DNA from: Pedobacter mucosus | GTDB taxonomy: Bacteria; Bacteroidota; Bacteroidia; Sphingobacteriales; Sphingobacteriaceae | Length of the DNA: 64,000 nucleotides | Reading direction: 5' to 3' | Assembly (NCBI RefSeq): GCF_022200785.1 | Contig: NZ_CP087585.1 | Coordinates: 2,294,001 to 2,358,000, forward strand | Part shown: piece by piece, positions 30,642 to 37,628 of the stretch | How the letters are laid out: every line of letters starts with the position of its first letter | Numbering within the stretch: the first letter of the stretch is position 1 | Notes under the pieces: generated by a model | Database searches by the model: none | The model's input: the letters and a program-made list of their open reading frames with translations, nothing else | What the model was told of the DNA's origin: nothing | Position numbers and translations under genes: made by a program

Positions 30642-31181
30642 TTAAACCGGTTCTATCTTCAATAATCTTCGGATCCTGCCAAAGCGTTTTTCAAGCTTAA
30701 TTGCTTTATCTCCCAATGGAACAGCCATAAGCTTACCTCCCTTTAGTGTTGCACCGATAACTATTCCACCCGAGATGAGTATAAAATTCTTGATGATGTA
30801 TTGTCCAAGCAGTGTTGGCACAAAGACAGAATGATTAAAAGTCTCATGTGGAAAGAAAACAAGTGGAAGAAAGGTTCCTGCCATCTGAAGGTATAAAAGA
30901 ATAAGAACGAGCCTAAGCCAGGCTTTTGTGATAAGACCTAAACCAATAATGCATTCCCAGATGCCTAATATGGGCATCGAAACTGATGGTTTTAATGCTC
31001 CAAAAGTCAGCTTTAGTATGGTTCTTCCGGCAATTTCCTCAGCTGAACTAAGACCCGGAAAAAATTTTAGTATACCAAACCAGATGAAGATTATGCCAAG
31101 GCATACACGTAAAATGTTCATGCCATTTCGGGCTTTCCAAGCCACAATACGACTTTCGGTAAAGTTTTTAATTAGGAACAT
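30642..31181 (-). CDS. DoxX/DoxD-like membrane protein
   Basis: 179 residues with about four membrane spans: ILRVCLGIIFIWFGILKFFPG, MPILGIWECIIGLGLITKAW, LVLILLYLQMAGTFLPLVFF and FILISGGIVIGATL. The opening R..lG..f...G..K....... pattern is that of DoxX/DUF417 proteins, often linked to thiol or oxidative stress; no role is assigned here. It is monocistronic. An inverted repeat (TTAGCG / CGCTAA, near 31217-31238) lies upstream. Confidence 0.75.
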   Translation of the reverse strand: MFLIKNFTESRIVAWKARNGMNILRVCLGIIFIWFGILKFFPGLSSAEEIAGRTILKLTFGALKPSVSMPILGIWECIIGLGLITKAWLRLVLILLYLQMAGTFLPLVFFPHETFNHSVFVPTLLGQYIIKNFILISGGIVIGATLKGGKLMAVPLGDKAIKLEKRFGRIRRLLKIEPV

Positions 31182-33436: not shown

Positions 33437-34018
33437 TTAAAGCGCTTTCAACAAAACATTTATGGAAGCTCTTTTTTGATAATTCGGGTCGAAGTGTACA
33501 AACTTTATCTTTCCAGAACGATTAATAATATAGGTTGCGGGTACAGGAAGCGTATGGCGGGTGTTACCGTTATTAGCCTCCAAATCAATTCTATAGCCTT
33601 TATATTTTGAAAAAGTCGCATCGTCCATCATAAAGTTGACACCGTAAGCTTTCATAATATCATCGTCCTTATCCTGTATAATGGAAAAACCTGCATTAGT
33701 TCTCTTTATTGTTTTTGCTATGTTTTCATTGGTTTCTGGAGTAATGCCAATAACATAAGCATCTTTACTTGTAAGTAACTGCAAGGAATCCTGAAGTTCT
33801 TTGATGTGCTTGTTGCAATAAGGGCACCATTGGCCACGGTAGAAAAAAAGTACAACCGATTTATGTCCTTTTAACAAAGTTTGCAAACTTATTTTTTTTC
33901 CATTTTGGTCTATCCCACTAAAAGCTGGGGCATTTGCTCCTACAGATAATCCTTTTTGAGCTTTCGCGTTTGAAATTACCGCAATAAACAGTGCAATAAA
34001 TAGTATAATTCTTTTCAT
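33437..34018 (-). CDS. Exported AhpC/TSA-type peroxiredoxin
   Basis: 193 residues with a signal peptide ending near SNAKAQ. Thioredoxin fold with VVLFFYRGQWCPYCNKHIKEL: the peroxidatic position and a nearby second Cys (CPYC) as in PrxQ/BCP-like atypical 2-Cys enzymes. Later LPVPATYIINRSGKIKFVHFDPNYQKR supplies the cis-Pro region and final strands. Likely a periplasmic peroxide or thiol reductase. It follows the Lys-Met protein by 48 bp on the same strand and probably shares its promoter at 34327-34353. Confidence 0.88.
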   Translation of the reverse strand: MKRIILFIALFIAVISNAKAQKGLSVGANAPAFSGIDQNGKKISLQTLLKGHKSVVLFFYRGQWCPYCNKHIKELQDSLQLLTSKDAYVIGITPETNENIAKTIKRTNAGFSIIQDKDDDIMKAYGVNFMMDDATFSKYKGYRIDLEANNGNTRHTLPVPATYIINRSGKIKFVHFDPNYQKRASINVLLKAL

Positions 34019-34066: not shown

Positions 34067-34300
34067 TTACATTTTGCTTTTTGACATTTTTCCTTTTGCC
34101 ATTTTGGATTTCTCCATTTTGATTTTTTTAGTCGAATCTGCCTTCATTTTCGACATTTTGCTTTTCTCCATCTTATCTATTTTCTTTGTGCTCATTTTAT
34201 CCTGTTGTGGACCATTTGCAAAGCTTGATGCAGAAATACTTAAAGTAACTAAGGCAGTAAGAACAAGTTTTGCAGCAGATTTTAAAAATTGATTTTTCAT
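34067..34300 (-). CDS. Small exported Lys-Met-repeat protein
   Basis: 77 residues. Signal peptide (KLVLTALVTLSISASSFA) then a mature part of about 49 residues with 8 Met and 17 Lys; every mature Met is preceded by Lys (DKM, SKM, IKM, GKM). No Cys. Such low-complexity Met-rich secreted peptides can act as sacrificial methionine scavengers of oxidants, as MrpX does in the Azospira SigF/YedY1 reactive-chlorine system, or bind soft metals. Its own ECF-type promoter matches that of the sigma and molybdoenzyme operons. Function is inference. Confidence 0.8.
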   Translation of the reverse strand: MKNQFLKSAAKLVLTALVTLSISASSFANGPQQDKMSTKKIDKMEKSKMSKMKADSTKKIKMEKSKMAKGKMSKSKM

Positions 34301-34326
34301 ATTGTTGTGTTTTTGTTTCCCTCTTT

Positions 34327-34353
34327 GTCGTTACCTATTTGAAATCCTTACAA
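34327..34353 (-). promoter_or_regulatory. ECF-type promoter, copy 1 (Lys-Met protein)
   Basis: On the minus strand TTGTAAGGA (34345-34353), 14-base spacer, CGAC (34327-34330), 27 bp before the ATG at 34300. Same -35 and -10 words and spacing as the promoter at 35305-35331. It lies just after the anti-sigma stop, giving the Lys-Met protein and peroxiredoxin their own transcription start. Confidence 0.75.
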
Positions 34354-34359
34354 TCAAAA

Positions 34360-34626
34360 TCAATTTTTATTCATTTCTTTTTCAATTGCTTGTTTTAAGT
34401 TCAATTTGAATTCATCATCAAGCTTTAACTCTTCAGTTTTAAAACCAGTAAATAAGCGATTAATAAGTAGGCTTTGCTGCTGAAAAGTTCTGCATACGGA
34501 ACAACCTTCGAGATGTATTTTTAGTTGCAAGGTTTCTGCGGCTGTAATCTTTCCCAAGGTTTTTTTCTCAATTAGAAAAGTTGCCTGCCTGCAATTGTAT
34601 ATTATATTTTTAAAAGCTCCTGTCAT
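34360..34626 (-). CDS. Putative zinc-finger anti-sigma factor
   Basis: 88 residues, cytoplasmic. The zf-HC2/ZAS motif appears as HLEGCSVC (His-x3-Cys-x2-Cys), which in anti-sigma factors binds zinc and can sense thiol oxidation. There is no transmembrane helix, so a redox-sensitive soluble anti-sigma of the RsrA type is plausible. It starts 1 bp after the sigma stop, so the two are translationally coupled. Confidence 0.82.
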   Translation of the reverse strand: MTGAFKNIIYNCRQATFLIEKKTLGKITAAETLQLKIHLEGCSVCRTFQQQSLLINRLFTGFKTEELKLDDEFKLNLKQAIEKEMNKN

Positions 34627-34627
34627 A

Positions 34628-35221
34628 TCAATTCCAATGTTTTTGAAGGCAAGCCCTCAAGTTTAGTTTTGTGCGATGCATAATTACCCAAAAGTTAGCA
34701 TCAGTAAGTTTTAGTTCAATACAAATTTTTTCTGAAGCAGAATCATCCATGTGTTTCATCGAAAATACAGAAAACCAAAGCGGAGGTAATTTTTTTAAGC
34801 AGCCTGTTAGAATGTTACCCAGCTCTTTAATTAGCAGCGGGTTATCAGTTTCTAAGCCAAATGCTTGGGGTGCATATATAGCGTTCCAGTGTCCGTTTTC
34901 TGCATCAAAAAATTCCAATTGTTCAGATTCCGATTGCCTGATTTCCTTTAATCCTCTTGATGCCTGTTTTCTGTAGAAATCAGCAATCTTGTTTTTCAGA
35001 ATTGCAGCAAGCCAGGTTTTTTCGCTACTATTTCCATTAAAACGAGCTAATTGCTGCAATGCAGCCAAAAAAGTATCCTGTACTAAATCTTTTGCTATTT
35101 CCTCATCTCTTAATCTCGAAACGGCAAAACGATAAAGATAATCAGCATATTTTTCAACCCAGGTTACAGGGTCGCTATAAAAGTGATTGGTTACCAATAA
35201 ACCTTGCTTTTCTTCATTCAT
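34628..35221 (-). CDS. ECF RNA polymerase sigma factor
   Basis: 197 residues. Region 2: YADYLYRFAVSRLRDEEIAKDLVQDTFLAALQQL, then WLAAILKNKIADFYRK; region 4: LPPLWFSVFSMKHMDDSASEKICIELKLTDANFWVIMHRTKLNLRACLQ. The pattern resembles the RpoE-like ECF group with soluble zinc-finger anti-sigma partners. Its promoter at 35264-35289 carries the same motif as the two flanking transcription units, so it probably controls itself and both units. Confidence 0.93.
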   Translation of the reverse strand: MNEEKQGLLVTNHFYSDPVTWVEKYADYLYRFAVSRLRDEEIAKDLVQDTFLAALQQLARFNGNSSEKTWLAAILKNKIADFYRKQASRGLKEIRQSESEQLEFFDAENGHWNAIYAPQAFGLETDNPLLIKELGNILTGCLKKLPPLWFSVFSMKHMDDSASEKICIELKLTDANFWVIMHRTKLNLRACLQKHWN

Positions 35222-35263
35222 CTTTTTACGTACATGATATAAATATAGTGCTTAACCGAATTA

Positions 35264-35289
35264 GTCGTACCAAATTAAATTCCTTACAA
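35264..35289 (-). promoter_or_regulatory. ECF-type promoter, copy 2 (sigma operon)
   Basis: On the minus strand TTGTAAGGA (35281-35289), 13-base spacer, CGAC (35264-35267), 42 bp before the sigma start. The spacer is one base shorter than in the other two copies. It predicts autoregulation. Confidence 0.7.
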
Positions 35290-35304
35290 ATTATTTTAAT
35301 TTTT

Positions 35305-35331
35305 TTGTAAGGAATACTTTAAACCAACGAC
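35305..35331 (+). promoter_or_regulatory. ECF-type promoter, copy 3 (DUF1223 / cytochrome / MsrP operon)
   Basis: TTGTAAGGA (35305-35313), 14-base spacer, CGAC (35328-35331). Back to back with the sigma promoter, 15 bp between -35 elements. The first in-frame ATG (35343) is only 11 bp after the -10, so transcripts would be nearly leaderless or start translation at the next ATG (35352). Confidence 0.75.
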
Positions 35332-35351
35332 TACGCCTTAAAATGATTGTT

Positions 35352-36107
35352 ATGGTTAAAAAATTAGCATTTCTACTTATAACGTTTTCTACAGTAAGCT
35401 TAGCCTTTACTTCAAAACAAGATAAACCCGCAGCGGAAGGTTTTGCGGTGATCGAATTATTTACTTCTGAAGGTTGCTCTAGTTGCCCACCTGCGGATGC
35501 ATTGATCGCAAAAATAGAAAAAGAAAACTCAGACAGACCTGTTTACATCCTTGCTTACCATGTAGATTATTGGGATAGATTAGGCTGGAAAGATAGCTTC
35601 AGCAATGCCATAAACTCGAAAAGACAGAGGCAGTATGCAAATTGGCTACGCCTTAGTAGCGTTTACACTCCTCAAATTGTTGTAAACGGAAGTCAGGAAT
35701 TTATTGGTTCTGAAGAGAAGACGCTTCGCAATGCCGTTCAAAATGCATTATCGCAAACTAGCCTAAATCATTTAGAAATTAATATTGAGGAACAGACTGC
35801 TACAAATATTTCTTTAAGCTACCAAAGAAACCAACGAGTGCAGGGCGATAACCTTGTTATAGCAATTGTAAGTCCAAGTGCAACAAATAAAGTTGAACGC
35901 GGTGAAAACAAAGGTAGAATACTTCATCATGTACAAATTGTAAACAACTTCGAAACCTTTAACCTTAATGGTAAAGAAAAGGGCTTGGTCAATTTAGCTT
36001 TAGGGAGTATGAAAAATGATTTTGAACTAATTGCTTTCCTGCAAAATGCTAATAGCGGACAAATTATGGCAGCTACAAAATTGCCATTAAAGCGCACAAT
36101 TAAATAA
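35352..36107 (+). CDS. DUF1223 thioredoxin-like exported protein
   Basis: 251 residues from ATG 35352 (ATG 35343 adds three residues but lies very near the predicted transcription start). Signal peptide, then the DUF1223 signature IELFTSEGCSSCPPADALI with a CxxC, HVDYWDRLGWKDSFS and RQRQYANWLRLSSVYTPQIVVNG. DUF1223 proteins are secreted thioredoxin-fold proteins of unknown activity. First gene of a three-gene operon with the cytochrome and molybdoenzyme; a disulfide or oxidant-related role fits (inference). Confidence 0.88.
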   Translation: MVKKLAFLLITFSTVSLAFTSKQDKPAAEGFAVIELFTSEGCSSCPPADALIAKIEKENSDRPVYILAYHVDYWDRLGWKDSFSNAINSKRQRQYANWLRLSSVYTPQIVVNGSQEFIGSEEKTLRNAVQNALSQTSLNHLEINIEEQTATNISLSYQRNQRVQGDNLVIAIVSPSATNKVERGENKGRILHHVQIVNNFETFNLNGKEKGLVNLALGSMKNDFELIAFLQNANSGQIMAATKLPLKRTIK

Positions 36108-36151
36108 ATCTTAGACAAACGAAATAGCCCTAACGTTATATATAAAGCCTG

Positions 36152-36865
36152 ATGAAAGAGATAAAGGAAAAACACTCCTTTTTAATGCGTTGGACACATT
36201 GGGTAAATTTTCCGGTGCTTGCAGTTATGATTTGGAGTGGATTATTTATTTATTGGGCAAATGATGCTTACGGAATCTCCATATTTGGGATTAGCTATAT
36301 CAAATTTTTCCCTGAATGGTTTTATAATTACTTTCATATTCCACAACGCCTTGCCGAAGGAATGGCCTACCACTTTTTATTCATGTGGTTCTTTTTTATA
36401 AATGGATTGCTTTACATCATTTACACTATTTTTTCTGGTGCTTGGCGAGAGCTTATCCCTCAAAAAAATTCATTTAAGGAAGCATGGTTTGTTTTACTTC
36501 ACGATTTACATATCAGACAATCTATTCCTCCACAAAAAAAATATAATGCTGCTCAACGAATTGCTTACACGGCAATTATATTAATGGGTTTTGGTTCTGT
36601 AATTACTGGACTTGCCATTTACAAACCAGTTCAATTTTATTGGCTTTGCTGGCTTTGTGGCGGTTATCATTTTGCCAGGATAATTCATTTTGCACTCACT
36701 ATTGGCTACGTATTTTTCTTCTTAATACATGTTATTCAGGTTGCCCTTGCGGGATGGAATAATTTCAGGTCAGTTGTATCAGGTTTTGAGGTTATAGAAA
36801 ATACAGAGAAAGTTAACGAAGAAAAAACAGAAAAAAATGGAACAGCCGATAAAAAAGAAAGTTAA
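36152..36865 (+). CDS. Membrane cytochrome b561-like subunit (MsrQ-analogue)
   Basis: 237 residues with about four to five membrane spans. Histidines in the first and later helices (RWTHWVNFPVLAVMIWSGLF, AYHFLFMWFFFIN, HFARIIHFALTIGYVFFFLIHVIQV) match di-haem cytochrome b561/thiosulfate reductase cytochrome b. It overlaps the molybdoenzyme gene by 29 bp, so it is almost certainly its electron donor from the quinone pool, analogous to but not homologous in sequence to MsrQ/YedZ. Confidence 0.87.
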   Translation: MKEIKEKHSFLMRWTHWVNFPVLAVMIWSGLFIYWANDAYGISIFGISYIKFFPEWFYNYFHIPQRLAEGMAYHFLFMWFFFINGLLYIIYTIFSGAWRELIPQKNSFKEAWFVLLHDLHIRQSIPPQKKYNAAQRIAYTAIILMGFGSVITGLAIYKPVQFYWLCWLCGGYHFARIIHFALTIGYVFFFLIHVIQVALAGWNNFRSVVSGFEVIENTEKVNEEKTEKNGTADKKES

Positions 36866-37628
36866 AGCGCCGCTCAGTATAGAGCATAAAATAAAACGCC
36901 GAAATTTTATTTCGTTCGGTGCATTTTTTGCTTTGGGTGGTAGCGCCATTGTAGGTTGGAAATGGTTACTCGATGCACCTGAAGAAACACCCGGAATTAC
37001 CGCCGGCGCAAAAGCACCTTTAAGAAAAGCCTTGAATAAAACCGAACTTTTATTCCGTAATTTCTTTAGCAATAATCACTTGGTTAAAACCTATCCGAAT
37101 GAACTTGCTGCAAAAAGCGTTCGTGTAAACAGCTTGATTGGTCTTGAAGATGATGAGGATTTTGACGAAAAAAATTGGAAGCTTGAGGTAAAAACCGGTA
37201 CAATGCAATCGTTACGCATCGGCATTGAAGAAATTAAAGCATTACCTAAAACAGAAATTGTTTTCGATTTTAAATGTGTAGAAGGCTGGGACCAAATTCA
37301 ACATTGGGGTGGTGTTAAGCTCAGTGATTTTTTATCGCACTTTAAACTTGATAAGCTGTCCGAGAAAAATTACATGGGACTTGAAACGCCAAATGGCAAA
37401 TACTATGTTGGTTTGGAAAGAGATAGTGTTTTGCATCCGCAAACCATTTTAGCCTACGAAATGAACGGTAAGCCTATTACAAACGAACACGGAGCACCGC
37501 TTAGGTTGATTATTCCTGTTAAATATGGAATTAAAAATCTTAAAAGAATCGGCTTGATGTCTTTTAGCGACAGCCGACCAAAGGACTATTGGTCGGAACA
37601 GGGCTATGATTATTATTCAGGTCTATAA
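36837..37628 (+). CDS. Tat-exported molybdopterin oxidoreductase (MsrP/YedY-like)
   Basis: 263 residues. Twin-Arg signal IKRRNFISFGAFFALGG, then the sulfite-oxidase fold: the molybdenum-ligand Cys147 in FDFKCVEGWDQIQHWGGV, GLERDSVLHPQTILAYEMNGKPI and EHGAPLRLIIPVKYGIKNLKRI, ending DYWSEQGYDYYSG. MsrP reduces methionine sulfoxide in periplasmic proteins. Pairing with a Met-rich secreted peptide under one sigma factor makes that substrate likely (inference); other oxyanion or sulfoxide substrates remain possible. Confidence 0.9.
   Translation: MEQPIKKKVKAPLSIEHKIKRRNFISFGAFFALGGSAIVGWKWLLDAPEETPGITAGAKAPLRKALNKTELLFRNFFSNNHLVKTYPNELAAKSVRVNSLIGLEDDEDFDEKNWKLEVKTGTMQSLRIGIEEIKALPKTEIVFDFKCVEGWDQIQHWGGVKLSDFLSHFKLDKLSEKNYMGLETPNGKYYVGLERDSVLHPQTILAYEMNGKPITNEHGAPLRLIIPVKYGIKNLKRIGLMSFSDSRPKDYWSEQGYDYYSGL

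Follow-up and report, generated by a model that had tools for sequence, protein, structure and literature searches.

We analysed a 64,000-nucleotide stretch (the window) of the 4.93-Mb genome of the soil bacterium Pedobacter mucosus (NZ_CP087585.1), in which an initial annotation had proposed a single regulon of an extracytoplasmic function (ECF) sigma factor that couples a secreted Lys-Met-repeat peptide to an MsrP-like molybdoenzyme. The genes form two divergent groups (Table 1). On the minus strand lie the sigma and anti-sigma genes, the peptide gene and a gene for an exported peroxiredoxin, which falls just beyond the span 34067-37628 originally assigned to the system. The plus strand carries a DUF1223 gene, a cytochrome b gene and the molybdoenzyme gene, all three as previously described. 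The peroxiredoxin and the DUF1223 protein are the extra thiol proteins that had been claimed for the system, and one promoter pattern is indeed common to all three transcription units. Absent from the initial annotation was a truncated msrA, which lies about 30 bp from the molybdoenzyme gene and is convergent with it.

Table 1. Features of the sigma factor-peptide-molybdoenzyme locus, with positions in the window
Feature	Position	Strand	Evidence
Exported AhpC/TSA-type peroxiredoxin-like protein	33437-34018	-	PF00578, 102.1 bits; WCPYC motif
Exported Lys-Met-repeat peptide, 77 aa (mature about 49 aa)	34067-34300	-	Composition; weak TIGR02953 match
ECF-type promoter of peptide-peroxiredoxin unit, GTAAGGA-N14-CGAC	34327-34351	-	Pattern match
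Anti-sigma, soluble ZAS-type, 88 aa	34360-34626	-	Zinc motif C12-X25-H38-X3-C42-X2-C45
ECF sigma factor	34628-35221	-	PF04542, 58.8 bits; best NCBIfam model TIGR02943
Promoter of sigma/anti-sigma unit, GTAAGGA-N13-CGAC	35264-35287	-	Pattern match; same motif upstream of sigma in relatives
Promoter of DUF1223-cytochrome b-MsrP-like operon, GTAAGGA-N14-CGAC	35307-35331	+	Pattern match
Exported DUF1223 protein, thioredoxin-fold, CSSC motif	35343-36107	+	PF06764, 195.8 bits
Cytochrome b (Ni_hydr_CYTB), predicted membrane electron donor	36152-36865	+	PF01292, 59.1 bits
YedY/MsrP-like molybdopterin oxidoreductase	36837-37628	+	PF00174 (Oxidored_molyb); KRRNF twin-arginine N-terminus; CVEGW
msrA remnant, truncated to last 53 residues	37661-37819	-	tblastn, 81% identity to a relative's MsrA, E 1e-23

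The three promoter matches compare with 0.01 expected in the window, which rules out chance matches on that scale. For the peroxiredoxin gene, which lies 48 bp behind the peptide gene, there is no separate promoter match in the window. For relatives, we used a matrix trained solely on the promoters of sigma and DUF1223 genes, with the 99th percentile of 465 background open reading frames (ORFs) as the threshold. Scores exceeded this threshold upstream of 33 of 37 peptide genes (two of which, in L115 and L123, are false peptide calls by eye that were kept in the count) and 12 of 15 MsrB genes. The results for the training genes themselves (sigma, 47 of 57; DUF1223, 27 of 41) are circular. Lower values upstream of MsrP (0/63), anti-sigma (0/56), MsrA (1/12), peroxiredoxin (14/44) and cytochrome b (7/63) are expected, because these are inner genes of operons. 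The scored regions (260 bp for sigma, DUF1223, peptide and MsrB genes, 240 bp for other genes) were longer than those of the background (200 bp), and there is therefore a slight bias toward matches.

In the mature peptide, whose signal cut was placed by eye, there are 17 Lys, 8 Met and no Cys among 49 residues, and a recount agrees with the earlier statement that every Met directly follows a Lys. This arrangement arises in 6 of 200000 composition shuffles. Related peptides were recognised by composition, and the boundary of their tails was set by a simple rule without a signal-peptide predictor. Across 61 distinct such peptides, Met follows Lys in 591 of 627 cases, while the remaining sequence drifts from genus to genus; the tails consist of 32.2% Lys, 18.5% Met, 1.0% His and 0.1% Cys. 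Some near relatives are Pedobacter proteins that were automatically named ‘pentapeptide MXKDX repeat’. The window peptide scores 24.1 bits with the MXKDX family model TIGR02953, against a curated cut-off of 41, and is rejected as a member on that basis; no protein above this cut-off was found in a phylum sample of 296 genomes. In one relative (G138, L034 8035-8262), the C-terminus of the peptide diverges from the Lys-Met repeat.

For the sigma factor, TIGR02943 is the best of 77 matched families (of which the best 25 are listed), with 137.4 bits against a cut-off of 162.2. The anti-sigma is also below the cut-offs of both of its models, NF052368 (40.2 bits; cut-off 50) and zf-HC2 (19.6 bits; cut-off 22.2). 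The pattern C-X25-H-X3-C-X2-C is nevertheless present in all 104 related anti-sigma ORFs (88 distinct), each with Cys as the first residue, and Cys12, His38, Cys42 and Cys45 are invariant in all 13 aligned proteins. With its spacing of 25, this pattern falls within the zinc-binding anti-sigma (ZAS) motif C/H-X23-26-H-X3-C-X2-C, so the sequence motif upholds the soluble zinc-type anti-sigma that had been proposed. Published accounts ascribe this motif to Haemophilus HrsE, Neisseria MseR and Streptomyces RsrA, each of them part of a system with msr genes under its control (PMC7907618, PMC2893595). In Haemophilus, both hypochlorous acid (HOCl) and H2O2 induce rpoE2 (PMC7907618). The ECF16 class, i.e., SigF/NrsF, is characterised by a six-helix DUF1109 anti-sigma, whereas the protein studied here is zinc-finger-like, is 88 aa long and has no DUF1109 match.

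PF01292 is the sole Pfam match of the cytochrome b. The different predicted electron donor that had been claimed relative to Azospira was thereby borne out, in that PF01794, which we take to be the ferric-reductase-like domain of the MsrQ/YedZ partner in MsrPQ systems, gave no match. A search of the protein against PDB by sequence gave no matches; its structural model (predicted local distance difference test, pLDDT, 70.8) has its closest, though weak, matches in the gamma subunit of formate dehydrogenase-N (E 2.1e-3) and the cytochrome b of hydrogenase-1. Both thiol proteins retain their motifs in relatives: GCxxC occurs in 76 of 81 distinct DUF1223 ORFs, and WCPYC in 50 of 53 distinct peroxiredoxin-related ORFs with more than 50% identity. 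DUF1223 belongs to the thioredoxin clan and is represented by structure 2axo (PMC3091736).

We found this gene set again in Pedobacter, Mucilaginibacter and Chitinophaga, and the best-matching named relatives of the molybdoenzyme come from Pedobacter species. The layout of peroxiredoxin, peptide, anti-sigma and sigma genes opposite DUF1223, cytochrome b and MsrP genes is recurrent across relatives; in L117-L119, peptide, peroxiredoxin, sigma, anti-sigma, cytochrome b and MsrP genes all have the same direction. A large exported protein is encoded behind a promoter copy in L117 (1470-2774) and L087 (5317-6624); that of L117 has no Pfam match, and its gene is the first of the co-directional run. 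Among 80 named loci, 78 contain an MsrP ORF (16 of these 78 loci are shorter than 10.7 kb), and within 5 kb of it we found cytochrome b in 76, DUF1223 in 55, sigma in 47, the peptide in 38 and peroxiredoxin in 33. DUF1223 and peroxiredoxin are both missing from two Chitinophaga loci that have sigma and the peptide, and in two Dyadobacter loci with sigma no peptide was recognised.

A family sample of 399 genomes yielded an MsrP-like gene in 125 (E<=1e-40) and the sigma gene in 153 (E<=1e-30). From these genomes, 63 MsrP loci and 57 sigma loci were examined (64 MsrP loci with L035); this set overlaps the named one, since the MsrP of 24 named loci is also that of a family-sample locus. The table of sigma loci covers 82 of the 90 regions L034-L123, i.e., all except six loci of other families (L038-L043), L035 and a 100-base filler (L083), and the window's own locus stands outside it. 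The 57 sigma loci comprise 30 with both peptide and MsrP, 18 with neither, 8 with MsrP only and a single one (G678) with the peptide only, in whose genome MsrP is located elsewhere (Fisher p 7.7e-8, without control for the tree). A peptide profile detected its target in each of the 13 peptide-positive genomes searched, and in none of the 18 with neither gene or the 8 with MsrP only; this profile is weighted toward Pedobacter and is less sensitive elsewhere (1.9e-8 for G585). These sequences point to an MrpX-like peptide, short, exported and Met-rich with repeats, which is predicted from the shared promoter and the co-occurrence to be co-regulated with a YedY-type enzyme. At this level, the initial observation is confirmed: the locus is real, conserved and coherent.

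New here is that relatives put exported MsrB and MsrA beside MsrP, either under the same promoter or in the same direction. MsrA and MsrB genes were recognised by short motifs (GCFW, RYCxN), and 16 such ORFs were checked with Pfam (one of them, in L124, was not derived from a motif). Near the locus, promoter copies lie 9-11 bp upstream of MsrB in nine loci, and MsrA then follows in several; the Pfam families of these proteins are SelR and PMSR. In two genomes, an MsrB gene distant from the sigma locus also has a promoter copy upstream, at 34 bp in G642 and, in G585, at 147 bp from the domain. Cytochrome b and MsrP have a co-directional MsrB, in some cases accompanied by MsrA, in Chitinophaga (L183), Dyadobacter (L192, L208, L226) and Ferruginibacter (L223, L229). 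Most such MsrA and MsrB proteins start, as judged by eye, with lipoprotein-like or other signals. An ORF with either motif is within 5 kb of MsrP in 18 of the 78 named loci and 15 of the 64 family-sample loci, which are overlapping sets, and four sampled genomes have 2-4 MsrB and 4-5 MsrA domains each. The P. mucosus genome itself contains a second cytochrome b-MsrP copy (C1:2621082-2623757; L035 9082-11757) with 72% identity, which has convergent full-length reading frames for exported MsrA and MsrB and no linked sigma or peptide; our scan found no GTAAG-type promoter before its MsrB. Because exported MsrA and MsrB belong to the regulon in relatives, they strengthen a reading in terms of methionine sulfoxide.

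Some further arrangements were seen around these genes. At the position of the window's msrA remnant, several relatives have an msrB-msrA pair. In L115 (G461 C1:440500-454500), shortened second MsrP, cytochrome b and DUF1223 pieces are located beside MsrB and MsrA frames, with MsrB under the promoter. The sigma locus of G308 (L075) differs in that a promoter copy is followed there by DUF417 and a fused MsrAB. The window also encodes a DUF417/DoxX membrane protein (30642-31181, minus strand), which weakly matches RclC, a reactive-chlorine membrane protein, with 20.2 bits (cut-off 275) and has no promoter copy before its gene.

Taken together, the gene set, the shared promoters, the co-occurrence, the Msr linkage and the zinc motif, all of which are sequence-based, make it likely that the locus specifies an ECF-sigma-controlled cycle of methionine sulfoxide in the cell envelope. 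Its inducer, its catalysis, the role of the peptide as a sink and the path of electrons are what we infer. In the proposed mechanism, the cytoplasmic ZAS anti-sigma, with its redox-type zinc site, would keep sigma bound until oxidant stress oxidises the anti-sigma cysteines and frees it. Free sigma would then drive the GTAAGGA-N13/14-CGAC promoters, with up to four outputs. The exported Lys-Met-repeat peptide may be a sacrificial sink for oxidants of the hypochlorite or chloramine type. The molybdoenzyme, fed from the quinone pool by the b-type cytochrome with quinol as presumed donor, would reduce methionine sulfoxide in the peptide and in other envelope proteins. The third output would consist of the thiol proteins, i.e., the exported peroxiredoxin and thioredoxin-fold DUF1223, and the fourth, in relatives, of exported MsrB and MsrA lipoproteins.

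It is important to consider several observations that weigh against this cycle. The rows of the co-occurrence table are related; the supported branches of a quick tree give six independent pairs, with three to five in the same direction, none opposite and a median p of 0.125, and it is with this caveat that the peptide and molybdoenzyme co-occur in relatives, as the initial annotation required of its interpretation. Among 38 loci with both sigma and MsrP, 8 have no recognised peptide. Of the 25 MsrP loci that have no sigma linked to them, 21 likewise lack the peptide: 20 were called as lacking it, a positive call in L115 was false by eye, and 4 (L049, L051, L052, L053) have it. Many of these loci with neither peptide nor sigma are more distant paralogues, with 49-57% identity, that are accompanied by cytochrome b only. 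Genome-wide counts of the promoter pattern do not exceed those of reversed-pattern controls. The three window sites are the only matches in the genome to GTAAGGR-N13-15-CGAC (control 17), a stricter pattern, TGTAAGGA-N12-16-CGAC, gave 3 matches (control 5), and allowing any base after GTAAGG added three sites, all GTAAGGT (control 11). The added sites are internal to reading frames of 709, 715 and 288 aa; they are therefore probably due to chance and were dropped as regulon members. Given these controls, the evidence for the promoter is its placement before three adjacent units and its conservation, and not its number in the genome. In Neisseria, sigmaE was unchanged by the oxidants tried (PMC2893595); H2O2 is elsewhere cited as its inducer (PMC7907618). 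The remaining objections concern the identity of the molybdoenzyme: it scores 86.8 bits with NF003767, the NCBIfam equivalog of MsrP (E. coli YedY), below the cut-off of 207, and a fold search with its AlphaFold model (pLDDT 76.9, 12 sequences) gives a mixture of YedY and sulfite oxidases, with one of the latter in the top rank.

These last results are what would be expected if the enzyme were a sulfite dehydrogenase or another member of the sulfite oxidase family, and the peptide shared its stress regulon without being related to it in function. We consider this unlikely. PF00174 is the only Pfam match of the enzyme, with no second domain; its best PDB sequence match is YedY (1xdq, E 3.9e-14, as compared with 3.9e-9 for sulfite oxidase); and its neighbours or regulon partners include MsrA and MsrB. 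The window's CVEGW aligns with CVEAW of YedY, C[VI]EGW is found in 122 of 124 distinct related ORFs, and the Cys in this context is presumably the Mo ligand. The YedY-like part of the earlier assignment therefore stands on domain and motif, while membership of the curated MsrP family does not, and because the score is below the cut-off we retain the name ‘MsrP-like’. A plasmid search with this enzyme gave 690 records, all below 60% identity (28-31% for the ten of the 690 that were listed), so that collection includes no plasmid with a close copy. Rhizobium and Methylobacterium plasmids (L234, L235) encode cytochrome b/b6-molybdopterin pairs with about 30% identity to the window's molybdoenzyme, and these two stretches contain no annotated sigma factor.

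It might also be that the regulon responds to thiol/disulfide or peroxide signals in general and that the peptide is a structural or antimicrobial polycation, in which Met is secondary. ZAS proteins with this spacing are capable of a response to thiol oxidants (PMC7907618, PMC2893595), and ten loci of the same genus (L064-L073) keep sigma, anti-sigma and peroxiredoxin with no peptide, DUF1223 or MsrP in 13 kb. Because these loci retain only those three genes, the output module seems to have been lost or gained as a block. However, the peptide follows MsrP rather than sigma or peroxiredoxin, and the Lys-Met dyad is what is retained as the peptide changes, which makes a mere polycation improbable. 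Finally, Met-rich peptides can bind Cu(I), and Met spacings of 3 and 5 dominate in the related peptides. Sequestration of copper or silver by the peptide, in a regulon answering metal stress that also oxidises methionine, would resemble the Caulobacter SigF regulon, which includes a YedY gene and answers chromate and cadmium (PMC3511200), but with abundant Lys, so little His or Cys, no metal-transport family among ten window proteins scanned, and MsrP, MsrA/B and peroxiredoxin as the peptide's travelling partners, we regard it as improbable.

Returning to the methionine-sulfoxide cycle, we can extend it to a more specific proposal, whose four parts we put forward jointly and only tentatively. 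The Lys-Met dyad may be the conserved functional unit, in which Lys amines would take up HOCl as chloramine and pass the oxidant to the neighbouring Met. The peptide would then be a reactive-chlorine trap that is conserved in composition and nearly free of sequence constraint. Its recharge could proceed from menaquinol via the dedicated cytochrome b-MsrP pair and exported MsrA/MsrB, with the cytoplasmic zinc-thiol sensor as the switch. Lastly, Bacteroidota might have arrived at a sink of the MrpX type independently of Proteobacteria.

The Azospira SigF/NrsF-YedYZ-MrpX system, of which the primary paper is reportedly that of Melnyk in 2015, and those of perchlorate islands likewise join an ECF sigma factor, a Met-rich peptide and a putative methionine sulfoxide reductase in a periplasmic methionine cycle against hypochlorite. 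Perchlorate islands contain sigF/nrsF, yedYZ and mrpX, and some also contain exported MsrA and MsrB (PMC4623255). Unlike Azospira, Pedobacter has a soluble ZAS anti-sigma, a PF01292 cytochrome b for YedZ and another promoter; it adds DUF1223 and peroxiredoxin, and its Lys-Met repeats are under the cut-off of the MXKDX model. In Brucella, BcrS/AbcS-BcrXQP is an HOCl-inducible, ECF-driven operon that encodes an MXKDX Met-rich peptide and MsrQ/MsrP homologues, and its promoters, GTAACC...CGAA, are reminiscent of GTAAGGA-N14-CGAC (PMC8315932). It differs from Pedobacter in its ECF16 sigma with a six-helix DUF1109 anti-sigma, its MsrQ-type partner and the placement of peptide and enzyme in one operon. 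Haemophilus RpoE2/HrsE and Neisseria SigmaE/MseR share the small ZAS anti-sigma and control exported MsrAB, and the descriptions compared mention no Met-rich peptide or Mo enzyme (PMC7907618, PMC2893595). Caulobacter SigF is similar in having a small ECF regulon with a YedY-like gene, and differs in its DUF2282, DUF692, DUF2063 and DoxX genes, its DUF1109 anti-sigma and its response to metal stress (PMC3511200).

By the sequence tests run, then, the Pedobacter system falls outside MsrPQ, TIGR02953 and ECF16. Our best reading by analogy is that it would work like Azospira MrpX/YedY and Brucella BcrXQP, with another class of sensor and another electron donor, and the initial interpretation as a Bacteroidota analogue of the Azospira system is supported. 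Among the matches listed in open-licence literature (titles and openings of abstracts), there was no Bacteroidota system of the same form. Our results suggest that a sacrificial-methionine defence, described from Proteobacteria in the papers cited here, is wider and is built from different regulators and electron donors. They offer a testable reason why a protein should be conserved mainly in its Lys-Met dyad, and a promoter motif with which other genomes can be scanned. They also propose a role for DUF1223, for the cytochrome b-MsrP pair and for the Pedobacter ‘pentapeptide MXKDX repeat’ proteins.

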